Source: an uncultured Bacilli bacterium
GTDB lineage: Bacteria > Bacillota_I > Bacilli_A > Izemoplasmatales > UBA1188
DNA length: 64,000 nt
Reading direction: 5' to 3'
NCBI GenBank assembly: GCA_905235635.1
Contig: CAJOMC010000007.1
Location: 62,001 to 126,000 of the forward strand
The notes beneath the pieces were generated by a model. That model saw only the letters and a list, made by a program, of their open reading frames with translations. It made no database searches and was not told the origin of the DNA. Both the position numbers and the translations under genes were made by a program. Positions 44,932 through 47,449 of this stretch are shown here, in pieces; positions within the stretch are counted from its first letter, which is position 1; each line of letters begins with the position of its first letter.

Positions 44932-45627
44932 ATGATTCTAAAAGGAAAGAATGCATGTAAAGAAACCATCCTAGCCAAAAGACCGGTCGAAAAAGTAATT
45001 TTTAGAAAAGGCTTCAGTGATGATATTGTTTCTTATGTAAAAGAGAATAAAATCCCTTATTCTTTTATGGATGAACATAAATTTGACAATTTATACAAAC
45101 ATGCACAAGGCATAGTTATTTATACTGATGATTATAAATATTATTCTCTTAATGAATTATTATTGTCAGAACCTAAGCCTACTTTAGTCGCTATTTTGGA
45201 CTCTATTACTGATCCTGAAAATTTAGGAAATATTATGAGAACTGTTGAAACGTTAGGTGCAGATTTCATTATTATTCCTAAATCTAAAAGCGTTTCTGTG
45301 AACGAAACGGCTTGTAAAGTATCTTGTGGTGCATTTAATTATGTGAAAGTTGTTGAAGTATCTAATTTATCTAATGCCATTAAAATCCTAAAAGAAAATG
45401 GTTTTTGGGTAGCTGGTGCTGATATGGATGGAGAAATTGATTACTCCAAGATGGATGTATCAGTTCCTTTAGCTATAGTTATAGGTTCTGAAGGATATGG
45501 CATTTCAAGGCTTGTTAGAGAGAATTGTGATTATCTTATTAGAATACCGATGAAAGGTAAGATTAATTCTATGAATGCGTCCGTTTCCCTTGCAATTATA
45601 CTCGCAAATATAATTTCAAGGAGATAA
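44932..45627 (+). CDS. rlmB: 23S rRNA/tRNA 2'-O-ribose methyltransferase, TrmH/SpoU family
   Basis: 231 residues: a short N-terminal substrate domain, then the SPOUT knot with LDSITDPENLGNIMRT, IGSEGYGISRLVRENCD and IPMKGKINSMNASVSLAI, the three SpoU motifs. Assignment to RlmB (G2251-type) rests on position and similarity. TGC-TATAAT (44911-44919) lies just upstream and would give a leader of only about 6 nt, excluding GAGGTG; read-through from mrnC may supply the site. Confidence 0.9.
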   Translation: MILKGKNACKETILAKRPVEKVIFRKGFSDDIVSYVKENKIPYSFMDEHKFDNLYKHAQGIVIYTDDYKYYSLNELLLSEPKPTLVAILDSITDPENLGNIMRTVETLGADFIIIPKSKSVSVNETACKVSCGAFNYVKVVEVSNLSNAIKILKENGFWVAGADMDGEIDYSKMDVSVPLAIVIGSEGYGISRLVRENCDYLIRIPMKGKINSMNASVSLAIILANIISRR

Positions 45628-45632
45628 CTACC

Positions 45633-46175
45633 ATTTTAAATTTATTTGAACTAAACGACTTTGAATTATTTTATCTAGCGAAAGAGAGAGACTCTATCGC
45701 ACTTGATTTAATTATAAAAAAATACTCTATCTTCATATCCAAAATGATATGTGATTTTCATATACGAAATGAATATGATGATGCATATCAAGAATCTTTA
45801 ATTCTTCTTTATGATGCTTTTTTGAAATATGATATAAATTCAAAATATCCTTTTTACTCGTATTTTAAAAAGAGTTTAAGAAACAGACTAATAGATTTTA
45901 AAAAGAAATATAGTAATTCTTTCATCACATATGAATCAGATTACAATCTTCCTATTTTCAAAGAAGAAACAGAACTAGATTACGAAAGAGAATTGACTTT
46001 GCCTTTATCAATACTAAATACAAAACAGAGGAAAATACTTGAATTAAGATACATTGAAGGCAAGAGCCCTAAAGAAATTGCTGAAATCTATGGTGTTAAT
46101 ATTAGAAATATCTATTCAACAATTCATACAGCCAAGGTAAAACTTAGAAGTAGATTATGTGAAGAAAACGATTAA
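45633..46175 (+). CDS. sigH: SigH-like RNA polymerase sigma factor with probable ATT start
   Basis: 180 residues when read from ATT 45633. The residues before the first ATG (45744), such as NDFELFYLAKERDSIALDLIIKKY, are a proper sigma region 2.1 start, so the ATG alone would cut the domain. AAGGAG at 45618-45623 is spaced 9 nt from the ATT. Region 2 follows (DDAYQESLILLYDAFLKYD), and region 4 with an HTH (RYIEGKSPKEIAEIYGVN). The neighbourhood equals sigH of Bacillus. Target promoters unknown. Confidence 0.82.
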   Translation: MLNLFELNDFELFYLAKERDSIALDLIIKKYSIFISKMICDFHIRNEYDDAYQESLILLYDAFLKYDINSKYPFYSYFKKSLRNRLIDFKKKYSNSFITYESDYNLPIFKEETELDYERELTLPLSILNTKQRKILELRYIEGKSPKEIAEIYGVNIRNIYSTIHTAKVKLRSRLCEEND

Positions 46176-46199: not shown

Positions 46200-46228
46200 T
46201 TGACATAATTAGTTTATATTTATAAAAT
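46200..46228 (+). promoter_or_regulatory. Promoter of rpmG-secE-nusG
   Basis: TTGACA (46200-46205), a 17-nt spacer and TAAAAT (46223-46228). Confidence 0.8.
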
Positions 46229-46253: not shown

Positions 46254-46400
46254 ATGAGAATTAAAATCATATTAGTGTGCTCTGAGTGTAACTCAAGAAA
46301 CTACACTATATTCAAAAATACAGCAAACAAAGATAGATTTGAATTAGTAAAATATTGCCGCGTTTGTGGCAAACGCACTCTACATAAAGAAAGCAAATAG
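46254..46400 (+). CDS. rpmG: 50S ribosomal protein L33
   Basis: 48 residues with two zinc pairs C9-x2-C12 and C35-x2-C38 ([19 protein letters not shown]). GGAG lies 9 nt before ATG 46254. First of the rpmG-secE-nusG group. Confidence 0.94.
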
Positions 46401-46412
46401 TGAGGAATAGTT

Positions 46413-46889
46413 ATGGAGAAAGATACTTCTACAAAAGCTAGAAAAGAAAAAGAATTAACTGCATCTAAACGTGTTTGGCAGTTCGTTAAAGAAGACCATC
46501 CTTTTGAAAACTGGTTACTTCTTGTACTTGCCACTGTACTTTTAGTTATTTCACTTTACATCTTAATCGCTGCAGCATCAGATAATAATTCATTTGCTGA
46601 CACATATTTTAATATCTCAGATTCTGGCTGGGCTATATTTGATGCTACTTGGAAAGTTATTCTTATTTCCTCTCTTATTGTTGCTTTATCAGTTGGTGTT
46701 ATTGTTTTTTGTTTATGGCCTATTTTCACACCTTCATTCAAAGAATTGAAGAACGTTAAATGGACTGACAAAAAAACTTTATTTAAGAACTCTTTAATTG
46801 TTTTACTATTCATTGGTTTCTTAACTGGATTATTCTATCTATTCAACTTTGGCCTTGTACCACTTTATAATCTAATCTTTGGAGCTTAA
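46413..46889 (+). CDS. secE: Preprotein translocase subunit SecE with extra N-terminal membrane part
   Basis: 158 residues. The last third is SecE: an amphipathic helix PSFKELKNVKWTDKKTL, then one membrane segment. Ahead of it are two further membrane helices (about 34-53 and 80-107) joined by an exposed loop with NNSFADTYF. Most Firmicutes SecE have one helix in about 60 residues; E. coli has three in 127. Position between rpmG and nusG supports the call. Confidence 0.88.
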   Translation: MEKDTSTKARKEKELTASKRVWQFVKEDHPFENWLLLVLATVLLVISLYILIAAASDNNSFADTYFNISDSGWAIFDATWKVILISSLIVALSVGVIVFCLWPIFTPSFKELKNVKWTDKKTLFKNSLIVLLFIGFLTGLFYLFNFGLVPLYNLIFGA

Positions 46890-46894
46890 TTATT

Positions 46895-47449
46895 ATGGCA
46901 AACAATAAAAAACGTTGGTACATCGTTCAAACCTCATCTGGGAAAGAAGATGTTGTCGCAAGAGACATCATGTCACGTGCACACTCTTTAGACCAAGATA
47001 ACTATATCTTTGATGCTTTTAGCCCAGATTCAATTGAACTTGTTGAAAAAGTAGATAAGAAAAACGGAACTAAGACTACAGTTGAAAAAAGAACTAAAGA
47101 ATACCCTGGATATGTATTTGTTGAAATGATTGATACATCAGATTCATGGTGGGTAGTCAGAAACACTCCAAATGTAACCGGATTCCTTGGATCATCAGGT
47201 AATAAAACTAGACCTGTTCCAGTAGATGAAGGTGAAATGGAAAATGTGCTAAGAAGAGCTGGCAAGATTGTTGATACAATTAATTTCCAAATTGGCGATA
47301 GCGTAACTATTACTGAGGGTAACTTTAAGGATAGAACAGGAACTGTTGACGATATTAATTTTGAAAACAAGTCTGTAACTGTTATTATCGACTTCTTCGG
47401 AAAATCAACACCAATTACTGTTGGTATTGATGAAGTAGAAGCTAACTAA
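46895..47449 (+). CDS. nusG: Transcription elongation/antitermination factor NusG
   Basis: Couples RNA polymerase to ribosomes and modulates pausing. 184 residues: NGN domain with KKRWYIVQTSSGKED and YPGYVFVEM, then the KOW motif (about 130-160, GDSVTITEGNFKDRTG). It follows secE by 5 nt and ends at a terminator. Confidence 0.96.
   Translation: MANNKKRWYIVQTSSGKEDVVARDIMSRAHSLDQDNYIFDAFSPDSIELVEKVDKKNGTKTTVEKRTKEYPGYVFVEMIDTSDSWWVVRNTPNVTGFLGSSGNKTRPVPVDEGEMENVLRRAGKIVDTINFQIGDSVTITEGNFKDRTGTVDDINFENKSVTVIIDFFGKSTPITVGIDEVEAN

Follow-up and report, generated by a model that had tools for sequence, protein, structure and literature searches.

The sigma factor gene that lies between rlmB and rpmG-secE-nusG in the window, i.e. 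the whole 64,000-nt stretch of DNA analysed here, starts at an ATT codon, as the initial annotation had proposed, and this claim is well supported, since all six readable loci of the genus have ATT or ATA at the homologous position together with a strong Shine-Dalgarno sequence (SD). The gene probably encodes a SigH-like factor with a deliberately inefficient AUU/AUA initiation that is discriminated against by IF3, a reading based on these sequence features and on analogy. According to this reading, the 6-nt SD would recruit the ribosome to the sigma start, where the initiator methionine would be placed at AUU (AUA in most relatives); IF3 would reject the non-AUG codon at most attempts, so that little sigma factor would be made, and a shortage of IF3 with respect to 30S subunits or a loss of initiation fidelity would raise the output.

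Table 1. Features of the sigma gene locus in the window (genome G000)
Feature	Position	Strand	Evidence or remark
rlmB, 23S rRNA methyltransferase, gene upstream of the sigma gene	44932..45627	+	TIGR00186, 208.4 bits (cut-off 160.15)
Shine-Dalgarno sequence AAGGAG	45618..45623	+	9-nt spacer to ATT
rlmB stop codon TAA	45625..45627	+	5 nt upstream of ATT
ATT start codon of the sigma gene	45633..45635	+	ATT/ATA at the homologous place in 6/6 readable genus loci
SigH-like factor of the sigma-70 family, 180 codons and a stop	45633..46175	+	TIGR02937, 65.8 bits (cut-off 42.9)
Codons 8-11, N-D-F-E (N-D-x-E motif)	45654..45665	+	5' of the first ATG
First in-frame ATG (Met38)	45744..45746	+	Rejected as start; without SD, inside model helix 21-41
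Sigma-A-type promoter-like site (TTGACA, 17 nt, TAAAAT) between the sigma gene and rpmG-secE-nusG	46200..46228	+	Read by eye
rpmG (L33), at the head of the downstream genes rpmG-secE-nusG	46254..46400	+	PF00471
secE	46413..46889	+	TIGR00964, 38.4 bits, over cut-off
nusG	46895..47449	+	PF02357

The position given for the ATT and its distances from AAGGAG and from the rlmB stop proved exact, and the SD of the sigma gene sits within the last codons of rlmB. An in-frame scan of positions 45567-45746 agrees with the earlier statement that no ATG, GTG or TTG fits upstream of 45744, that ATG being the only such codon found, and no SD is present within the 24 nt preceding it. Within the window, 63 of the 8699 ATT/ATA triplets (0.7 %) have a 6-nt SD at a usable spacing, which is the chance rate.

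The stretch upstream of Met38 belongs to the protein. Homologues were searched for in 101 genomes, i.e. G000, on contig C7 of which the window is located, and 100 relatives, and matches were obtained in 89. The best match begins at or before query residue 8 in 88 of these, i.e. at least 30 residues before Met38, bearing out the claim that homology runs in frame upstream of ATG 45744; the exception is G024, where the gene starts at the first base of its contig and is cut by the contig end. Five residues (N8, D9, E11, Y31 and K37), all 5' of Met38, are invariant in an alignment of 44 homologues, and the AlphaFold2 model based on this alignment (mean pLDDT 85.6, pTM 0.52) contains helices at residues 9-17 and 21-41, of which initiation at Met38 would, according to the model, delete the first and cut the second. 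Of the 89 matching genomes, 17 were left out and 72 had the start codon of the sigma gene read; a relative starting at the position of 45744 was looked for in these 72 loci and found in none. The alternative that the true start is ATG 45744, or that the ATT is a sequencing or assembly error, draws on this ATG being the first start that a gene finder limited to ATG, GTG and TTG can call, but with a whole helix and the invariant residues upstream of it, no SD before it and six separate assemblies in agreement, we give it practically no credence. In particular, the ATT is not a sequencing error, because six genomes of the genus all show a 6-nt SD followed by ATT or ATA.

These genomes belong to a family of seven, all of one genus, of which six have a readable 5' end of the sigma gene. 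For the seventh, G004, the profile search shows only the C-terminal part of the sigma factor, at the edge of contig C27, and it was left out; its only rlmB-like match is a single partial one (29 %). The start is ATT in G000 and G002 and ATA in G001, G003, G005 and G006. In all six loci, the 6-nt SD has a scored spacing of 7-8 nt, and no ATG, GTG or TTG lies ahead of the invariant N-D-x-E motif. Comparison with related genomes, which had been suggested as a check, places the starts of 64 loci from two sister families at about the same position, before N-D-x-E. In a tree of 44 loci, the six genus sequences form one clade (support 96/94), the branches within which sum to about 7 changes per column when added by hand; the branches of G000 and G001 measure 1.72 and 1.43 changes per column, respectively. 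On this tree, ATT and ATA have interchanged at least two times and have never changed to ATG, GTG or TTG. The first two bases of the genus start are constantly AT and the third is never G. While the missing G alone is weak evidence, the DNA being AT-rich, the kept AT, the absence of G, the strong SD and the fixed place together argue, at the level of sequence, for a maintained AUA/AUU start.

The sister families f2 and f3 present a different picture. The starts called in their 64 loci are ATG in 37, TTG in 18, GTG in seven and CTG- or ATC-like in two (G060 and G062), TTG being strikingly common; in G035, the start that was scored as a GTG lacking an SD may be CTG. The most frequent location of the start is six codons before N-D-x-E, i.e. 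at the place of ATA/ATT in five of the genus members, while the start of G000 lies seven codons before the motif. Non-ATG starts are found in 27 of the 64 sigma loci versus 5 of 51 for the neighbouring genes rpmG and nusG pooled (Fisher p = 0.0001), the comparison with rpmG alone (5/26) being borderline (p = 0.052). These data bear on neutral drift as an explanation, according to which a poor start is tolerated, and not maintained, because very little of the sigma factor is required or because the factor is decaying. The sigma protein is fast-evolving in the G000 lineage, and TTG or GTG starts in 25/64 sister loci suggest that the gene tolerates weak starts. Nevertheless, drift seems rather improbable to us, considering that the open reading frame is intact in all five genus genomes in which it is complete (in G005 it runs off its contig), that the genus has only ATA and ATT, where TTG, GTG and ATG occur side by side in the sister families, and that the 6-nt SD is present in 6/6 genus loci, whereas only 8 of the 64 sister loci have an SD of at least 6 nt. 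For the G000 sigma factor itself, relaxed constraint is possible, because its branch is long and its region 2 falls slightly short of the Pfam cut-off.

The proximity of rlmB suggests other explanations. The rlmB stop overlaps the sigma start in four of the six genus loci, i.e. as ATAA in G003 and G006, ATAG in G005 and ATTAA in G002, and lies wholly upstream of it, within 8 nt, in G000 and G001. With the stop overlapping the start or located at most 8 nt upstream in all six loci, ribosomes ending rlmB might restart at the adjacent weak codon, in which case IF3 discrimination would matter little and the coupling would set the ratio of sigma factor to RlmB. However, each genus sigma locus has its own strong SD, and a stop, which may be that of rlmB, also lies directly before an ATG sigma start in several sister loci (for example G010, G046 and G047). 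Termination-reinitiation is therefore an unlikely explanation of the weak start; such translational coupling may work together with IF3 discrimination, not in its place, and is possible as a second layer.

The same overlap could also act as a passive constraint that forces ATA or ATT without regulatory meaning. An ATG would indeed destroy the rlmB stop in G002 (ATTAA) and G005 (ATAG), but in G003 and G006 it would give ATGA, leaving TGA as the rlmB stop, and G000 and G001 are free to take ATG, their rlmB stop being wholly upstream. A genus-wide code change, with TGA lost as a stop and ATGA overlaps barred, was rejected, since TGA ends 8 of 51 long open reading frames in the window. Judged from these sequences, the overlap constraint alone does not explain the ATT/ATA pattern, and we regard it as very improbable. 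A fusion of RlmB with the sigma factor through frameshifting or stop readthrough, for which the sigma frame of G000 would be suited by being open for 66 nt upstream into rlmB, is scarcely credible given that the other five readable loci carry an in-frame TAG 12-18 nt upstream of the ATA/ATT of the sigma gene and that rlmB is never in the sigma frame.

To our knowledge, very few genes use start codons that IF3 rejects. The rarity of such a start was estimated by comparing stop-to-stop open reading frames from 852 kb of the 1371-kb G000 genome with those from 743 kb of G002. This gave 290 non-overlapping reciprocal best pairs, 288 of them closed at the 5' end in both genomes, from which we retained those that in neither genome have an ATG, GTG or TTG preceded by an SD of at least 4 nt between codons -25 and +15 relative to the start of the alignment. 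The filter, which is blind to genes whose start is unusual in one of the genomes but canonical and good in the other, passed 48 of the 288 pairs, and nearly all of these, when examined by eye, were plain ATG starts with a weak SD or pairs in which the alignment begins late. A 6-nt SD and ATT in both genomes are seen in the sigma pair only; one other filtered pair, infC, combines a strong SD with a codon of this kind, and does so in G002 alone. Among 273 starts examined in G000, ATG accounted for 239, GTG for 12 and TTG for 12, with none called in ten, and an SD of at least 6 nt precedes 31 % of the examined genes genome-wide in G000 and 36 % in G002. A special initiator tRNA was also considered: ARAGORN, run on 40 stretches covering less than 60 % of the G000 genome, identified 10 tRNAs, none of them Met or Ile(TAT), a result that at this coverage weighs neither for nor against such a tRNA.

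Regarding the identity of the protein, its score for TIGR02937 (Table 1) places it in the sigma-70 superfamily, and Sigma70_r4_2 and Sigma70_r4 are above cut-off, while Sigma70_r2 reaches 22 bits versus a Pfam cut-off of 24. The gene order rlmB-sigma-rpmG-secE-nusG is present at the locus, which we take to correspond to the sigH locus of Bacillus, and the top fold match is RPSH of 9a4r_A, an integrative model that presumably represents B. subtilis SigH (E 1.9e-06, TM 0.46), followed by ECF factors; the modest TM-scores are probably due to two domains that are free relative to each other. The designation SigH in the initial annotation is thus backed by the locus and the fold match but not by the NCBIfam SigH equivalog TIGR02859, for which the score is 34.4 versus 294.8 bits. 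As a sigma factor of two domains that is encoded at the sigH locus, the protein is fairly named SigH-like. As for possible target genes, comEC was found in six of the seven family genomes, and a search for SigH-like promoter patterns upstream of it gave no shared site. A type II secretion/ComGA-type ATPase (T2SSE over cut-off, G000:C17:8219-9340) occurs in G000 only among the seven genomes of the genus.

At its true start site, the sigma gene carries a codon other than ATG, GTG or TTG that is conserved in relatives, which is what IF3 discrimination entails, and IF3 is encoded in all seven family genomes. The infC gene itself is cut in G005, leaving six readable loci in the genus. Five of these have a non-canonical start (ATA, ATT or ATC), the start region showing GAGGTG and ATA in G001 and G004, ATC-ATA in G002 and ATC-ATT in G003 and G006. 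Thirty infC loci from the sister families, out of 59 genomes that gave a match, were inspected by eye and show ATT, ATA or ATC behind an extended SD. Going by these sequences, infC genes of the order as a rule have starts of the ATT/ATA/ATC class, whereas sigma genes outside this genus have them only exceptionally. The IF3 sequences of G004 and G001 are very similar although the two are counted as separate species; G001 is listed with 7 % contamination, and its infC may derive from a G004-like genome.

In G000 (infC on C15, reverse strand), the homologous codon is ATG, oddly far (about 15 nt) behind a GAGG motif to which the codon is closer in the other five. The non-canonical start of infC thus appears to be lost in G000, and this species may differ in its IF3 autoregulation. 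Because its infC seems to start at ATG, a circuit in which infC and the sigma gene share a codon class seems incomplete in G000, which speaks against our main reading. As a broader proposal, which we put forward only tentatively, the alternative sigma factor could serve as a second IF3 read-out next to infC, wiring a transcription programme to the IF3:30S ratio or to initiation fidelity, independently of Streptomyces sigR; the gene would have acquired its infC-like initiation site, i.e. a strong SD and AUA/AUU, from an ancestor with TTG or ATG.

The low yield, the dependence on IF3 and the physiological trigger are what we infer for IF3-discriminated initiation of the sigma gene, poor translation and IF3 control being proposed by analogy with sigR, with several S. 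aureus starts and with S. aureus sigH. A parallel in codon class is infC, which in E. coli has an AUU start and is autoregulated (cited in PMC5472188) and in S. aureus uses AUA (PMC13009471). The sigma gene resembles infC (AUU/AUA/AUC) in its codon class and strong SD, both of which are seen in the order's own infC, but infC encodes the repressor itself, whereas the sigma gene would be an additional target. In S. aureus, the AUA/AUU starts of ccpN, cvfC1 and citZ, with an extended SD, gave about 10 % of an AUG reporter in poor medium (PMC13009471). As in ccpN (AUA) and cvfC1 (AUU), the start studied here is conserved and follows an extended SD, and ccpN likewise encodes a transcription regulator; however, neither is a sigma factor, and their start sites were measured by ribosome profiling and reporters (PMC13009471). 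A sigma factor of the same type is S. aureus sigH, for which translation is the limiting step, with a TTG start and a 13-base inverted repeat hiding the ribosome site (PMC3486894). The present gene is likewise of the sigH type with a weak start and a predicted translational restraint. In contrast to S. aureus sigH, no comparable repressive hairpin was predicted around its start, folds of -40..+30 and -150..+60 at six starts giving weak local structures only.

A search of one open literature collection, which does not prove absence, returned no sigma factor with an AUU or AUA start. There is one well-studied counterpart, Streptomyces sigR, which is of independent origin, and the present start is real, conserved and rare. 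The sigR gene starts at GTC and is repressed by IF3, and its product is made in excess when the start is canonical (Feeney et al. 2017, PMC5472188); the start is conserved across the genus as GTC (32/34) or GTT (2/34) (PMC5472188). In the suggestion that the unusual start keeps sigma levels low or links them to initiation fidelity, the initial annotation fits both the sequence features and this precedent. Both genes encode alternative sigma factors, and in both the start is non-canonical, follows an extended SD and is conserved genus-wide. Here, however, the codons are ATT/ATA instead of GTC/GTT, and while sigR is actinobacterial and paired with the anti-sigma factor RsrA, the present gene is SigH-like, belongs to Bacilli/Mollicutes-type genomes and has no adjoining anti-sigma gene; IF3 control was tested experimentally for sigR and is predicted for the present gene. 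Genes of this class are cut short by gene finders limited to ATG, GTG and TTG, and more of them could be found by searching for homology that extends past the first ATG together with a strong SD. If the proposed control is true, a second sigma factor with such a start, in a distant lineage and genus-wide as in Streptomyces, would suggest that fidelity control of transcription programmes evolved more than once.
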